Shown here in pieces: positions 2,094 through 30,206 of a stretch of DNA of 38,911 nt. A program made the translations under genes and the position numbers. Each line of letters begins with the position of its first letter. Position 1 is the stretch's first letter. The notes under the pieces were generated by a model. The model did not search any database and was not told the origin of the DNA. It saw only the letters and a list, made by a program, of their open reading frames with translations. Source of the DNA: an uncultured Eubacteriales bacterium (GTDB taxonomy: Bacteria; Bacillota; Clostridia; Christensenellales; Aristaeellaceae); the NCBI GenBank assembly GCA_902790175.1, contig CADAQZ010000027.1, forward strand, positions 1 to 38,911, in the 5' to 3' direction.

Positions 2094-2170
2094 TGGCGTG
2101 CCCGGCGGGATTCGAACCCACGGTCTTCAGAGTCGGAGTCTGACGCGATATCCAGCTTCGCTACGGGCAC
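2094..2170 (-). tRNA. tRNA-Arg (anticodon CCG)
   Basis: On the minus strand the 5' acceptor strand GTGCCCG pairs with CGGGCAC, followed by G and an encoded CCA. The anticodon arm is TCAGA-CTCCGAC-TCTGA, giving anticodon CCG, which reads CGG arginine codons. The T arm is GTGGG-TTCGAAT-CCCGC. The D stem is GCGA/TCGC rather than the common GCTC/GAGC; both strands changed together, so pairing is kept. All four arms fold and the GC-rich genes here use CGG codons. Its 3' end points toward the phage remnant, consistent with a tRNA used as an integration site. Confidence 0.96.
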
Positions 2171-24753: not shown

Positions 24754-24783
24754 CGCTTCGCTCGATTTACATCGAGCGAAGCG
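24754..24783 (+). terminator. Perfect 13-bp hairpin followed by Ts
   Basis: CGCTTCGCTCGAT (24754-24766) pairs with ATCGAGCGAAGCG (24771-24783) over TTAC, then ATAATTTTTTG. It is oriented to stop plus-strand transcription just before the exporter promoter; no plus-strand gene is nearby upstream, so it may insulate the promoter. Confidence 0.6.
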
Positions 24784-24812: not shown

Positions 24813-24841
24813 TTGACAACGGCGCGCCTATCCGGTATACT
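24813..24841 (+). promoter_or_regulatory. Promoter of the ABC exporter operon
   Basis: TTGACA (24813-24818), a 17-base spacer and TATACT (24836-24841). A strong sigma-A promoter that gives a leader of about 195 bases before the first exporter gene. Confidence 0.9.
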
Positions 24842-24892
24842 GACATCTAACGGCGCGTGCGCGCCAAAACCGATGAAACGGAGGTGGACAAT

Positions 24893-24961
24893 GTGAAGCT
24901 GCGCAATGTATGGATCGCGAAGCTCGCTTTCGCCTGCCGTCATGGAGGTCATTCTGCCTAG
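24893..24961 (+). CDS. 22-residue leader peptide ORF
   Basis: A short ORF starting at GTG 24893 with GGAGG at 24880-24884, eight bases upstream, and ending at TAG 24959-24961. It encodes MKLRNVWIAKL followed by AFACRHGGHSA. It lies between the exporter promoter and an intrinsic terminator that starts 20 bases after its stop, the layout of a ribosome-mediated transcription attenuator. In Bacillus the heterodimeric exporter BmrCD is controlled this way by the leader peptide BmrB; this leader is not recognisably homologous. The start and Shine-Dalgarno are clear; translation and control are inferred. Confidence 0.65.
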   Translation: MKLRNVWIAKLAFACRHGGHSA

Positions 24962-24980
24962 GATCAATGGGCTGTATCCC

Positions 24981-25009
24981 GCCGGACACGCAGGTGTCCG
25001 GCGTTTTTT
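24981..25009 (+). terminator. Intrinsic terminator in the exporter leader (putative attenuator)
   Basis: GCCGGACAC (24981-24989) pairs perfectly with GTGTCCGGC (24994-25002) over a GCAG tetraloop, then G and six Ts. It stands between the promoter and the first exporter gene, 34 bases before its ATG, so default transcription should stop here. I could not find a convincing antiterminator by eye. Confidence 0.9.
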
Positions 25010-25042
25010 GTGCGTATTTTCGACCATCTACGGAGGTTTTCC

Positions 25043-26905
25043 ATGTACGATACCATTCAATCCCCCGCGGAGCGCGGCGTACTCCGGCGGTTTGGGGAAT
25101 TCATGAAGGGCAGCGGCCTCAAATACCTGGGCAGCGTGTTTTGCGTTGCCGTCAGCGTGCTGACGGGGTTCATCACGCCGCTGTTGATCGCCGGCGCGGT
25201 GGACGCCGTGACCGATACGTTGAACGGCAAGGGCGTGAACGGCGTGAACCTGCCGGGGTTCCTGGCGGGCTTCTTTGACGCGCGCGGCGGCGCGGAGTAC
25301 CTCGCGCGGCACATCTGGATCGTGGCCGTGATGCTGGTGGCCGTCAGCCTGATAGGTGGGCTGTTCCAGTACCTGCGCGGCAAGTGGAGCGCCGAGGCCA
25401 GCGAGACGATCGCCGAGCGCATGCGCGAGCGCCTCTACGCCCACCTGCTGGCCATGGACTATGACTACCACGTCAAGGCCCAGACCGGCGATCTGATCCA
25501 GCGCTGCACCACCGACGTCGAGACCGTGCGCCGCTTCCTGGCCAGCCAGGTGATCGAGATCTTCCGCACCGTGATCATGGTGGCGCTGGCTTTGACGCTC
25601 ATGCTGTCCATCCACGTGAAGCTGACGCTGATCTCGCTGATCCTGATCCCCGCGCTGTTCGGCCTCGCCTTCTGGTTCTTCCACTGGGTACAAAAGCTGT
25701 TCATGGAGGCGGACGAGGCGGACGGCCAGCTGAGCGCGATGCTGCAGGAGAGCCTGACCGGCGTGCGCGTGGTGCGCGCGTTTGGACGGCAGCGCTATGA
25801 GAGCGACCGCTTCGCCGTGCGCGCCGACTCCGTGCACGACAAGAGCCTGCGTATCAGCCGCGTGATGGCCGTCTACTGGTCCTGCTCGGACATGCTCAGC
25901 ATGCTGCAGACCGGCATGACGCTGCTGTTCGGCATACTGTTCGCCGTGCGCGGCGAGATCACGACCGGCAACGTGCTGACTTTCGTCAGCTACATCTCCA
26001 TGCTCATCTGGCCCATCCGCCAGCTGGGCCGCATACTGCAGGACCTCGGCAAGTCCATGGTGGCCATGCGCCGCGTCTATGAAATCCTGGACGCAAAGGC
26101 GGAGGCCGACACCCCCGGCGCGGGCGAAGCGCCGCTCTGGGAAGACATCGAGTTCAGGCACGTGTCCTTTCACTACGACGGCAAGCAGCCGATCCTGAAG
26201 GACGTGAGCTTCACCGCGAAGGCGGGCCAGACGATCGCCATACTGGGCGCGACGGGCAGCGGCAAGAGCACGATGATGAACCTCTTGCAGCGGCTGTACG
26301 ACGTGTCCGGCGGCGAGATACTGATCGGCGGGCGCGACATCCGCACCATCGAGAAGAAGTACTTAAGAAGCCGCGTGGGCTACGTGCTGCAGGAGCCGTT
26401 CCTGTACTCGCGCTCCATCAAGGACAATCTCGCCATCACCCGCGAGGACGCCGGGACGGACGAGATCGAGCGCGTCGCCGCCGTCACGCACTCCGACGGG
26501 TTCATCGCCCAGTTCAAGGAGGGCTACGACACGATGGTCGGCGAGCGCGGCGTGACGCTCTCCGGCGGGCAGAAGCAGCGCGTCGCCATCGCGCGGACGC
26601 TGCTGCGGGACAACGACATATTGATCCTGGACGACTCGCTGTCCGCCGTGGACACCGAGACCGACCGGGCCATACGAGACGCCCTGGCAAAGGGACGCAG
26701 CGCCGGCGGGCGCGTGCCGACGACGTTCATCATCTCCCACCGGTTGACCACGCTGGCCGACGCCGACCTGATCCTCGTGCTCGAGGACGGCGCGATCGCC
26801 CAGCAGGGCACGCACGAGCAGCTCATCCATCAGGACGGCCTCTACCAGCGGGTGTACCGCATCCAGGCCGCGCTGGAGGAGGAGCTGAAGAACGAGATCG
26901 CGTAA
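25043..26905 (+). CDS. ABC exporter half-transporter, degenerate-site subunit
   Basis: A 620-residue membrane-ATPase fusion of the multidrug/lipid exporter type. Six membrane helices occupy about residues 30-330. The ATPase has Walker A GATGSGKST (402-410), signature LSGGQ (506-510) and Walker B ILILDD, in which the catalytic position is D531 instead of Glu, followed by the H-loop IISHRLTT. An Asp at this position marks the non-catalytic site of heterodimeric exporters such as BmrCD, LmrCD and TM287/288. Its partner is encoded 14 bp downstream. ATG 25043 with GGAGG upstream is preferred over a start at 25010. Expression probably depends on the leader terminator. The substrate is unknown; drugs or host antimicrobials are likely. 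Confidence 0.93.
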   Translation: MYDTIQSPAERGVLRRFGEFMKGSGLKYLGSVFCVAVSVLTGFITPLLIAGAVDAVTDTLNGKGVNGVNLPGFLAGFFDARGGAEYLARHIWIVAVMLVAVSLIGGLFQYLRGKWSAEASETIAERMRERLYAHLLAMDYDYHVKAQTGDLIQRCTTDVETVRRFLASQVIEIFRTVIMVALALTLMLSIHVKLTLISLILIPALFGLAFWFFHWVQKLFMEADEADGQLSAMLQESLTGVRVVRAFGRQRYESDRFAVRADSVHDKSLRISRVMAVYWSCSDMLSMLQTGMTLLFGILFAVRGEITTGNVLTFVSYISMLIWPIRQLGRILQDLGKSMVAMRRVYEILDAKAEADTPGAGEAPLWEDIEFRHVSFHYDGKQPILKDVSFTAKAGQTIAILGATGSGKSTMMNLLQRLYDVSGGEILIGGRDIRTIEKKYLRSRVGYVLQEPFLYSRSIKDNLAITREDAGTDEIERVAAVTHSDGFIAQFKEGYDTMVGERGVTLSGGQKQRVAIARTLLRDNDILILDDSLSAVDTETDRAIRDALAKGRSAGGRVPTTFIISHRLTTLADADLILVLEDGAIAQQGTHEQLIHQDGLYQRVYRIQAALEEELKNEIA

Positions 26906-26919
26906 TTGAGGTGTAAACC

Positions 26920-28758
26920 ATGCAATATCAACAGGAACAGGACTATACCAAGAAGCTGGACGCCGGGCTCTGGCGACGGCTGATCGGGTACATGAAGCCC
27001 TATCACAAGTACCTGATCGCCATCATGGCGACGATGGCCGTCAGCGCGCTGTGCGACACCATCTTTCCCCTGCTCACCCGCGAGGCCATCGACACGTTCA
27101 TCGCGGGCGGGCAGGCCGGAGGGAAGGTGTGGTTCATCGCGCGCTACATCGGCACGGTGCTCTTGCAATCGGCCTGCATATTCACGTTCTGCATGCTCTG
27201 CGGCAGGGCGGAGATGGGCATCAACCGCCACATCCGCAAGCTGGCCTTCAAGCGGCTGGAGGAGCTCTCCTTCTCCTACTACGACCAGACGCCTGTGGGC
27301 TTCATCATCTCGCGCATGACCAGCGACACCGCGCGCCTGGGCGAGACGGTGGCCTGGGGCCTGGTGGACCTGTTCTGGTCCGGCTTCTACATACTGATCA
27401 CGGCCGTGGCCATGCTGATGCTGGACGTGCGGATGGCGCTTATGGTGCTGTGCGTGATGCCCGTGATCGCGGTGGTGGCTGTGTGGTTCCAGAAGCGCAT
27501 TTTGGCGGGCTACCGCATCGTGCGCAAGACCAACAGCCAGATCACCGGCGCGTTCAACGAGGGCATCATGGGCGCCAAGACCAGCAAGACGCTGGTGCGC
27601 GAGGAGTCCAACTGCCGCGAGTTCTCCGTACTGACAGGTACGATGCGCACGGCCTCCGTGCGCGCCGCGGTGCTCAGCGCGCTGTTTTTGCCCATCGTGG
27701 TGTCCCTCGGCTCGGTGGCCACGGCGCTGGTGCTCCAGCGCGGGGGCACGGAGGTGTTCAGCGCCCGTGGCCTGGTGACGGTCGGCACGCTGGCGGCGTT
27801 CGTGCAGTACTCCACCGGCATCTTCGAGCCCATCAGCTCCATCGCGCGCATCTTCGCCGACCTCCAGGCCAGCCAGGCCGCGGCGGAGCGCGTGGTGAGT
27901 TTGCTTGAGACGGAGCCGGAGATCTTCGACACGCCCGAGGTGATCGAGAAGTTCGGAGACAGCTTCAACCCGAAGAAGGAGAACTGGCCGGACATCGTGG
28001 GCGACGTGGAGTTTGACCACGTGTCGTTCCACTACGCCACCGGCGAGGAGGTGCTGGAGGACTTCTCTCTGAAGGTGAAGGCCGGGCAGACCGTGGCGCT
28101 GGTGGGCGAGACGGGCAGCGGCAAGAGCACAATCGTGAACCTGATCTGCCGCTTCTACGAGCCCACGAAGGGCGTGATCCGCATCGACGGCGAGGACTAC
28201 AAGAGCCGCAGCATCCTCTGGCTCCAGGCCCACCTGGGCTACGTGCTGCAGCAGCCGCACCTGTTCTCCGGCACGATCCGCGAGAACATCCGCTTCGGCA
28301 GGCTGGACGCCACCGACCGGGAGATCGAGGCCGCGTGTCGTGCCGTGGACGCCGAGGACTTCATACTGAAGATGGACAAGGGCTACGACAGCGAGGTCGG
28401 CGAGGGCGGCAACCGCCTGTCCACCGGCCAGAAGCAGCTGATCTCCTTCGCCCGCGCGCTGATCGCCAAGCCGGCGATATTCGTGCTGGACGAGGCCACC
28501 TCGTCGGTGGACACTCAGACCGAGCAGAAGCTGCAGGCGGCCATCTCCGTGGCGCTCGAGGGGCGCACGAGCTTCATCATTGCCCACCGCCTCTCCACGA
28601 TCCGAAATGCCGATTTGATCCTCGTGATCAAGAACGGCCGGATCCTCGAGCGCGGCACCCACGCCGAACTGCTCGCCCAGCGGGGCTACTACTACACGCT
28701 CTACGCCAACCAGTTCCGCGAGGAAGGCGAGAAGAAGGCGTGGCAGGAGATCGCGTAA
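26920..28758 (+). CDS. ABC exporter half-transporter, catalytic subunit
   Basis: A 612-residue partner of the preceding exporter half. The membrane domain covers about residues 25-330. The ATPase has Walker A GETGSGKST (396-404), signature LSTGQ (500-504) and Walker B IFVLDEATSSVD with the catalytic E525, then H-loop IIAHRLST. The altered signature (LSTGQ) would face the Asp-type Walker B of the first subunit, making one degenerate site. The intact LSGGQ of the first subunit faces this subunit's complete Walker motifs, making one active site. This complementary pattern supports a true heterodimer. GAGGTG precedes ATG 26920; both genes are on one transcript. Confidence 0.94.
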   Translation: MQYQQEQDYTKKLDAGLWRRLIGYMKPYHKYLIAIMATMAVSALCDTIFPLLTREAIDTFIAGGQAGGKVWFIARYIGTVLLQSACIFTFCMLCGRAEMGINRHIRKLAFKRLEELSFSYYDQTPVGFIISRMTSDTARLGETVAWGLVDLFWSGFYILITAVAMLMLDVRMALMVLCVMPVIAVVAVWFQKRILAGYRIVRKTNSQITGAFNEGIMGAKTSKTLVREESNCREFSVLTGTMRTASVRAAVLSALFLPIVVSLGSVATALVLQRGGTEVFSARGLVTVGTLAAFVQYSTGIFEPISSIARIFADLQASQAAAERVVSLLETEPEIFDTPEVIEKFGDSFNPKKENWPDIVGDVEFDHVSFHYATGEEVLEDFSLKVKAGQTVALVGETGSGKSTIVNLICRFYEPTKGVIRIDGEDYKSRSILWLQAHLGYVLQQPHLFSGTIRENIRFGRLDATDREIEAACRAVDAEDFILKMDKGYDSEVGEGGNRLSTGQKQLISFARALIAKPAIFVLDEATSSVDTQTEQKLQAAISVALEGRTSFIIAHRLSTIRNADLILVIKNGRILERGTHAELLAQRGYYYTLYANQFREEGEKKAWQEIA

Positions 28759-28806: not shown

Positions 28807-28823
28807 CTATTCCCTATCCCCTA
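28807..28823 (-). repeat. Short heptad array at the MATE stop codon
   Basis: On the minus strand the stop TAG is followed by GGGATAG and GGAATAG, so TAG recurs every seven bases and falls in all three frames within 17 bases. The pattern matches the longer array after pilB. Confidence 0.65.
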
Positions 28824-30206
28824 GAATTTTTCTCCCGACAGTATCGGGTTCCACTTATTGCCCCGGTAGCGGATGCAGAACAGGACGAACAGCAGTATGT
28901 TGTGGGCGATCATCGCGCCCCAGGCGGCGGTGAGGCCGAGGCCCAGCCCGCGCACGAGCACGGCCGTGGCCAGCACGCGCACGCCCCACATGCCCACGAT
29001 GTTGCATCCGAAGGCGTACATCGTGTCGCCCACGCCCATGAAGATGCCCTCGAGCACCACGGCGACGCCGTACAACGGCTCGGTGACGGCCACCATGCGC
29101 AGCACCGTACTGCCCAATCGGATGACGCGCGCGTCCGGCGTAAACATCGCCATCATCCGCGGCGCGAGCAGGAACAGGGTCGCACCGGAGACGGTCATCA
29201 GCACGGTCTCCAGGATGATGAGCGTGCGGGTGATGGACTTCATGTAGTTCTGGTCGCGCATGCCGCCCGCGTTGCCGGACAGCGTGGCCGCGGCGGTCTG
29301 GATGCCGTAGGCCGGGATGTAGAACGCCGATTCCGCGGTGTTGGCGATGGCGTGCGCGGCGGTGGCCACCGTGCCCAGCGAGTTGATCAACGACGCGAAG
29401 GCCACATAGCCGAACGACGTGCCGCAGCGCTGGATCGCCGCGGGGAGCGCCACTTTCAGGCAGGGCTTCAGGATCGCCCAGTCGGGCTTCAGGCTCTGGC
29501 CGCGCGGGGAGATGCGCGGATGCCGCCAGAGCGCGATCGTCATGGACACGCCGCCCACGGTGAATCCCACCGCCGTGCCGATGGCCGCGCCGGTGACACC
29601 CAGCCCCGCGCCGGGCAGGCGCACGGTCACCCCCAGCAGCGTCACGTCGCGCGCCTCGTAGATCAGCAGGAAGTTCAACACCACGTTCACGGCGTTCACC
29701 AGCAGGTTCACCTTCATCGGCGTGCGGGTGTCGCCGGACGCGCGCAGCACGGTGCCGAAGATCACGGTGGCGGCGCGCAGCAGCATCGGCGTGTAGATGA
29801 TGAAGAAGTAGCGGGCGGCGCTCTTGCGGATGTCCTCGGCGGCGTTCATCCAACCGGGGATCCAGCGGCTCAGCCCCAGCGTGAGCGCCGTGAAGGCCAG
29901 CCCGGCGATCAGTGCCGCCGCGACCGACTGCGCCACGGCGCGAGAGGCATTCTCATAGCGCTGTGCGCCGTATTCCCGCGCGATGAAGGCCAAAAAGCCG
30001 ATGCCCAGGGCCGAGAGCGTGCTGCCCACCATCCAGTTGATGGTGACGGTCGCGCCCACCGTGGCCGTCGCCGCCGCGCCCAGCCGGCCCACCATCGCGG
30101 AGTCCACGTACTGGGCCGCCACCTGCAACAGTTGCTCCAGCATCGTGGGCCACGCCAGCGCCAGCACAATCCACAGCGTCCGCCGCCCTCCGTCCTTCGT
30201 CTGCAA
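28821..30206 (-). CDS. MATE-family efflux transporter
   Basis: A 461-residue inner-membrane antiporter with about twelve hydrophobic helices in two related halves. Family phrases are LAWPTMLEQLLQVAAQYVDS at the N-terminus, the ILRASGDTRTP-like VLRASGDTRTPM after helix 5, and the GVGDTMYAFGC loop late in the second half. MATE proteins expel cationic drugs or metabolites using sodium or protons. The start is TTG 30206, with GGAGGG seven bases upstream. It converges with the ABC exporter operon, so two unrelated exporters stand together. The substrate cannot be told. Confidence 0.93.
   Translation of the reverse strand: MQTKDGGRRTLWIVLALAWPTMLEQLLQVAAQYVDSAMVGRLGAAATATVGATVTINWMVGSTLSALGIGFLAFIAREYGAQRYENASRAVAQSVAAALIAGLAFTALTLGLSRWIPGWMNAAEDIRKSAARYFFIIYTPMLLRAATVIFGTVLRASGDTRTPMKVNLLVNAVNVVLNFLLIYEARDVTLLGVTVRLPGAGLGVTGAAIGTAVGFTVGGVSMTIALWRHPRISPRGQSLKPDWAILKPCLKVALPAAIQRCGTSFGYVAFASLINSLGTVATAAHAIANTAESAFYIPAYGIQTAAATLSGNAGGMRDQNYMKSITRTLIILETVLMTVSGATLFLLAPRMMAMFTPDARVIRLGSTVLRMVAVTEPLYGVAVVLEGIFMGVGDTMYAFGCNIVGMWGVRVLATAVLVRGLGLGLTAAWGAMIAHNILLFVLFCIRYRGNKWNPILSGEKF

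Follow-up and report, generated by a model that had tools for sequence, protein, structure and literature searches.

A probable ribosome-mediated transcription attenuator, with the leader Shine-Dalgarno sequence as a switch strand, in front of an ABC exporter operon of uncultured Clostridia

Introduction

Why does an intrinsic terminator sit between a promoter and the first of two exporter genes, with a short ORF just before it? The genes lie in the window, by which we mean the whole 38,911-nt stretch of DNA from an uncultured Eubacteriales bacterium that was analysed here. An earlier note on this DNA proposed that the ORF is a leader through which a ribosome controls the terminator. If so, which strands of the leader RNA make up the switch, and what does the ribosome on it report?

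Organisation of the locus

The features on which the argument depends all lie on the + strand.

24813..24841, +, sigma-70-type promoter, TTGACA-17-TATACT, with 11 of 12 consensus matches and a 17-nt spacer
24878..24889, +, strand 1, the leader Shine-Dalgarno sequence (SD; GGAGG, 24880-24884) and spacer; predicted 5' strand of the anti-antiterminator, from the family permutation test
24893..24961, +, leader ORF VKLRNVWIAKLAFACRHGGHSA, from GTG 24893 to TAG 24961, 22 codons and stop; position shared with relatives
24931..24941, +, strand 2, CGCCTGCCGTC, leader codons 13-17; its alternative predicted partners are strand 1 (1:2) or strand 3 with the loop (2:3)
24980..24993, +, strand 3, terminator 5' arm (24980-24989) and tetraloop GCAG (24990-24993)
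24994..25009, +, strand 4, terminator 3' arm (24994-25003) and T6 (25004-25009)
25032..25036, +, exporter SD, GGAGG, without specific pairing to strand 2 across the family
25043..26905, +, ABC exporter subunit 1, 620 aa (ABC_membrane, ABC_tran), with DD (ILILDDSLSAVD) at the end of Walker B
26920..28758, +, ABC exporter subunit 2, 612 aa (ABC_membrane, ABC_tran), with the canonical FVLDEATSSVD (DE at the end of Walker B)

The promoter and the ORF are as the earlier note described them, a consensus site and 22 codons behind a good SD. The terminator is likewise a perfect stem followed by six T, but the stem (CGCCGGACAC-GCAG-GTGTCCGGCG, 24980-25003) has ten pairs, not the nine that had been counted; 18 nt separate it from the stop codon of the ORF. 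Between 23000 and 30000 there are three promoter-like sites, against a shuffle mean of 1.3, and the close relatives repeat TATACT, and TTGACA too wherever the aligned stretch reaches that far. The combination of a strong SD, an ORF of 10-60 codons and a strong terminator near the stop is found at a single place on both strands of the whole window, which is this leader. The start codon is ATG in 13 of the 15 aligned close relatives (a set that includes the window copy) and GTG in the window and in L088. These two are also the only ones of the 15 in which an ATG directly followed by TGA (24891-24896 in the window) overlaps the GTG start at good SD spacing, and this start-stop could by itself hold a ribosome on the leader SD.

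Upstream of the promoter, a 13-pair terminator-like hairpin with a T-run (24754-24783, +) separates it from a divergent gene on the minus strand, which encodes a 466-aa protein with Big_2 domains. Convergent to the exporter operon is a gene for a MATE-family transporter (Pfam MatE; 28821-30206, -), and a tRNA gene (Rfam RF00005) lies at 2097-2170 (-).

The exporter itself had been assigned to the heterodimeric type of bmrCD, and the assignment stands, since two adjacent ABC half-exporters are present, one with a degenerate catalytic site. In subunit 1 the second Asp of the DD pair presumably stands where the catalytic Glu is usual, and such DD/DE asymmetry is typical of heterodimeric exporters. 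The best PDB matches of both subunits are P-glycoproteins; among the matches listed, the bacterial heterodimers TM287/288 and YheI/YheH appear at E values of 1e-82 or below, with chains named YheI and YheH, which we take to be BmrC and BmrD, at 1.9e-91 (P0002) and 1.3e-102 (P0003). Among the best 25 NCBIfam matches listed for each exporter protein none reached its cut-off. The pump may export drugs.

Conservation of the leader among relatives

The exporter was searched for in 150 genomes sampled from the family, with a cut-off of E up to 1e-120, and was matched in 116 of them, with 117 matches in total. The relatives are metagenome-assembled genomes labelled 'Clostridiales' or 'Clostridia', several of them out of named ruminant gut samples. 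Upstream stretches were read for 110 of the 117 matches and for 11 further named loci, 121 in all; L092 was omitted because it duplicates the record of L005, and L089, L090, L095 and L097 were left out as apparent repeats of L003, L004, L006 and L007. A heuristic script, which looks for a strong-SD ORF of 10-70 codons and then a terminator, found this arrangement in 69 of the 121 upstream regions: in 53 of the 70 with an exporter identity of at least 49%, and in 9 of the 11 named loci. All 14 named loci with at least 80% exporter identity have the leader, loci of the same record being counted through their partners. The 17 exporters of at least 49% identity in which it went undetected include two at contig ends (L070, L081) and seven (L054, L058, L060, L067, L071, L082, L083) with an SD and a short ORF and no terminator that the script accepted downstream. 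Exporter relatives below about 49% identity (L087, L124-L129, L134-L139 and others) mostly have no such leader, the script finding it in 7 of 40, as if they were paralogues under other regulation.

Other families gave 26 exporter matches at E up to 1e-150. The upstream regions of 22 were read by eye, and in 8 of these, from three families, an SD and a short ORF are followed by a terminator that starts 14-68 nt past the stop codon.

Might the short ORF be incidental to a conserved, structured 5' leader that binds a ligand, as a riboswitch, or a protein? We regard this as most improbable. A covariance-model search gave no match at the gathering score, so that membership of a known Rfam cis-regulatory family was rejected, and the matches of the leader at E up to 5 are of chance level only. 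What is conserved as strand 1 is, moreover, the SD of the ORF, and it is a strong-SD ORF that recurs in the 69 upstream regions.

The earlier note had looked to the relatives for conservation of the ORF and the terminator; the architecture is kept in them, the peptide is not. Between genera the leader peptides differ widely in length and sequence while the positions of the helices persist. Is the leader then an amino-acid-starvation attenuator of the trp or his kind, the four-strand logic of which would be identical? This reading too seems to us very unlikely, given that the window leader has no run of one codon, that the listed peptides from different genera share no amino acid, and that the downstream genes are exporters and not biosynthetic.

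A drug-specific arrest peptide in the style of ermC or mef(E), for which induction would depend on the nascent peptide and on one antibiotic class, has more to be said for it and is still, in our judgement, unlikely. The accessible text of the papers on mef(E) (PMC4335068) and tlrB/yxjB (PMC6851288) describes short arrest leaders, and within the genus the peptides of our leaders do look alike (MKLR...FACRRxGxxSA). Within the genus, however, pairs of leaders differ on average by 0.379, 0.370 and 0.419 at the first, second and third codon positions (22 columns), the third positions being hardly freer than the others, and variation that is about equal at all three argues against such a peptide. 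The codons that are conserved (GCC TGC CGY) coincide with strand 2, and there is little sign in the sequences of selection on the peptide beyond it.

A search with the 22-aa peptide matched 16 of the 150 genomes at E up to 1. Matches in front of the exporter with E below 0.05 are limited to the window and two relatives (E 0.001 and 0.012), the other 13 having E values of 0.12-0.98, and no NCBIfam or Pfam entry matches the peptide. Since the peptide thus finds the leaders of two relatives, and strand complementarity finds dozens, such leaders are probably under-annotated.

Complementarity of the strands

The earlier note had reported that no antiterminator could be found by eye. The relatives reveal one: the end of the ORF can pair either with the leader SD or with the terminator 5' arm. 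In the later part of the L012 ORF, ATCCGAGGGCTCC has complements in both the SD stretch GGAGGCTTCGGA and the terminator arm GAGCCATCGGAT; the same three-way relation between SD, ORF end and terminator arm is seen, with different letters, in L014, L028, L029 and L057. The antiterminators of L012 and L014 are stronger than that of the window.

The generality of this relation was assessed for 60 representatives, less than about 70% identical, in each of which the pairing of a strand with its own partner was compared with its pairing with the partner from every other leader (2000 permutations). Own partners were favoured by -4.39 kcal/mol for 1:2 (permutation sd 0.33) and by -2.09 kcal/mol for 2:3 (sd 0.35), and in neither case were any of the 2000 permutations as low. 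The controls on the same 60 leaders showed no excess, with +0.57 for 2:4 and +0.20 for 1:3, values that 1951 and 1582 of the 2000 permutations, respectively, equalled or undercut. The test takes the 60 leaders as its units, not the phylogeny; kinship makes the mismatched partners more alike, and so works against the effect.

Dinucleotide shuffles of 62 leaders (one record being counted twice; 100 shuffles each) gave mean z values of -2.14 (1:2), -0.73 (5' arm) and +0.13 (3' arm), and the proportions of leaders in which at most 5 of the 100 shuffles were as good were 61%, 23% and 3%, respectively.

Two further candidate pairings were examined. An antiterminator in which strand 2 pairs with the terminator loop and 3' arm (2:4) was dropped as a general rule for lack of excess over permutations, and a translational arm, in which strand 2 would hide the exporter SD, was rejected because no specific pairing was seen in the 53 of the 60 leaders that have a recognisable exporter SD.

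The proposed switch of the window and its close relatives

In the window, 1:2 consists of ACGGAGGTG with CGCCTGCCGT (-14.9 kcal/mol) and is predicted to form at 0.80 without a ribosome. The alternative, 2:3, consists of CUGC with the loop GCAG, GUC with GAC and then UGG with CCG (-9.3 kcal/mol), and its probability rises from 0.05 to 0.61 with a ribosome at the start codon, or from 0.00 to 0.48 by a slightly different measure. A crude measure, the capture of the arm by whatever lies upstream, hardly moves (0.65 to 0.67). The mutually exclusive antiterminator and anti-antiterminator helices are a finding at the level of the family: in the window sequence alone, 14 of 100 shuffles match or beat 1:2, and 78 of 100 match or beat the pairing of the leader with the terminator 5' arm. 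The inclusion of the window among the switches rests, therefore, on orthology and on the conserved positions in its relatives.

Hardly any variation is seen in GCCTGCCG or in the GCRG loop of the terminator when the close relatives are aligned, and in the 15 leaders 1:2 is paired in 95.8% of cells and 2:3 in 91.7%. Covariation inside the genus does not exceed that of shuffles for either helix, 422 of 500 scoring as high for 1:2 and 244 of 500 for 2:3; for the terminator there is some, with a covariation score that 1 of 500 shuffles reaches. In four relatives one or two of the 2:3 pairs are lost. L098 (L098:806-946) has lost three of the eight and carries CGCG in place of GCRG as its terminator loop, which would point to a shift of register or to decay of the switch.

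Folding had been suggested as a search for alternative structures, and in the window it yields both 1:2 and the ribosome-dependent 2:3, but leaves the finished terminator unaffected at equilibrium. The terminator (-21.5 kcal/mol) is far more stable than the antiterminator (-9.3 kcal/mol), and in the complete RNA it forms at 0.99 with or without a ribosome. As the finished terminator wins in either state, antitermination must be a kinetic race or be helped by pausing.

Folding with a simulated ribosome

In RNA that ends before strand 4, capture of the terminator 5' arm by upstream sequence was 0.51 when no ribosome was present; a ribosome at the start codon raised it to 0.73, and one at the stop codon lowered it to 0.32. 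The corresponding values with shuffled ORF interiors were 0.62, 0.61 and 0.36. The shift from no ribosome to start-codon ribosome is thus 0.222, against -0.003 for the shuffled interiors (p 2e-9). The difference between start and stop ribosomes (0.407 against 0.252, p 2e-6) partly arises in shuffled leaders too, and capture with the stop ribosome is not different from that in shuffled leaders (p 0.18). The SD itself is paired at 0.68, compared with 0.45 after shuffling.

Across the family, a start-codon ribosome takes the probability of 2:3 before strand 4 from 0.12 to 0.46; the increase is seen in 57 of the 60 leaders and amounts to at least 0.2 in 41. Strand 2 is defined here by its pairing with strand 1, so that the probability of 2:1 would be circular, and that of 2:3 is not. 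In the complete RNA no more than 13 of the 60 leaders show a fall of the terminator by 0.2 or more with a start-codon ribosome.

Proposed mechanism

We conclude that the locus is very probably a four-strand ribosome-mediated transcription attenuator like those of bmrB and vmlR, in which the anti-antiterminator strand is the leader SD and which registers the holding of a ribosome at the start, mostly irrespective of the peptide. The leader-specific complementarity in the family, and the folding with a simulated ribosome against its shuffled control, support the control by ribosomes that the earlier note had proposed for this exporter. Comparison and computation provide the basis for this conclusion, in the architecture, the leader-specific 1:2 and 2:3, the switching in silico and the absence of peptide conservation.

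In this model, strand 1 is the leader SD and its spacer, strand 2 the 3' part of the leader ORF, and strands 3 and 4 the two terminator arms. On a leader without a ribosome 1:2 would form, leaving strand 3 for strand 4, and transcription would stop. Fast and complete translation of the leader would place the ribosome over strand 2, and again the terminator would form. A ribosome held on or just after the start codon would cover the SD and leave strand 2 free; strand 2 could then capture the terminator 5' arm as it emerges, allowing RNA polymerase into the exporter genes. Termination and antitermination of this kind would take place in the cell as a kinetic race, in which certain drugs would act as inducers.

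What does the cell sense by such a device? Because strand 1 is the SD, it would measure how long a ribosome stays at the start site and would depend little on the peptide sequence, and the presence of the same design with differing peptides in many relatives implies that stuck ribosomes, and not one particular peptide, are probably what is sensed. The stronger form of this proposal, to which we give an even chance, is that of a peptide-independent sensor of initiation time: any event that holds a ribosome at the start would open the pump genes and anything that keeps ribosomes off the SD would close them, in at least four families of one order (that of the window and three others), with the peptides free to drift. 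The prediction is that drugs which freeze the initiating ribosome will induce, that drugs which prevent initiation will not, and that recoding of the peptide will be immaterial. If it is true, these leaders form a distinct attenuator subclass that searches for conserved uORFs based on the peptide would largely miss.

With the ribosome-binding site itself as the switch, the design would add an order of Clostridia, largely uncultured and from gut and rumen, to the bacteria in which ribosomes control the attenuation of multidrug-type exporters.

Comparison with known attenuators

A literature search, with most subscription papers outside its scope, found no paper on this leader, and the comparisons that follow refer to the accessible portions of the papers cited. 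A survey of premature terminators lists leaders of ABC transporters, one of them before a Lactobacillus multidrug export operon (PMC2965389), and topAI of E. coli has a uORF that responds to multiple drugs (PMC12121999). The patAB attenuator of Streptococcus pneumoniae also precedes an ABC exporter and, like ours, combines a terminator with a predicted antiterminator and anti-antiterminator; the main text of the paper on it (PMC4319486) nowhere uses the term leader peptide.

The bmrB leader of the B. subtilis bmrBCD operon has in common with the window a short translated leader, an intrinsic terminator and a heterodimeric ABC exporter downstream, and a ribosome inhibitor raises readthrough there in a manner dependent on leader translation (PMC4191407). 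It differs in having 53 residues and a terminator inside the ORF, compared with 22 codons and a terminator 18 nt after the stop; the accessible text makes no mention of the SD as a switch strand. From the place of its terminator, and from the lack of an NCBIfam or Pfam match to its peptide, the window leader does not appear to belong to the bmrB family, in keeping with the view of the earlier note that the two leaders differ.

The cplR leader of Clostridioides difficile likewise shows uORF-dependent transcription attenuation in a clostridium, with a peptide consensus that varies between related genes. In contrast to the window, its uORF encodes a tripeptide, translational attenuation sequesters the cplR SD, and the target is an ABC-F factor (PMC10201436).

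The vmlR leader of B. subtilis (PMC9226507) shares the logic of anti-antiterminator, antiterminator and terminator, in which a ribosome stalled on the uORF prevents the anti-antiterminator; inhibitors of the initiating ribosome induce it, and several peptide variants work. Its uORF is again a tripeptide, the SD of which is single-stranded and precedes the first stem, whereas in the window the leader SD is the 5' strand of the stem. It also has an extra SD-sequestering hairpin over vmlR, which encodes an ABC-F factor. Both cplR and vmlR, as far as these texts describe, hide the SD of the target gene as a second, translational layer; in our leaders, strand 2 and the exporter SD are without specific pairing. 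In its logic the leader of the window resembles bmrB, and vmlR most closely of all.
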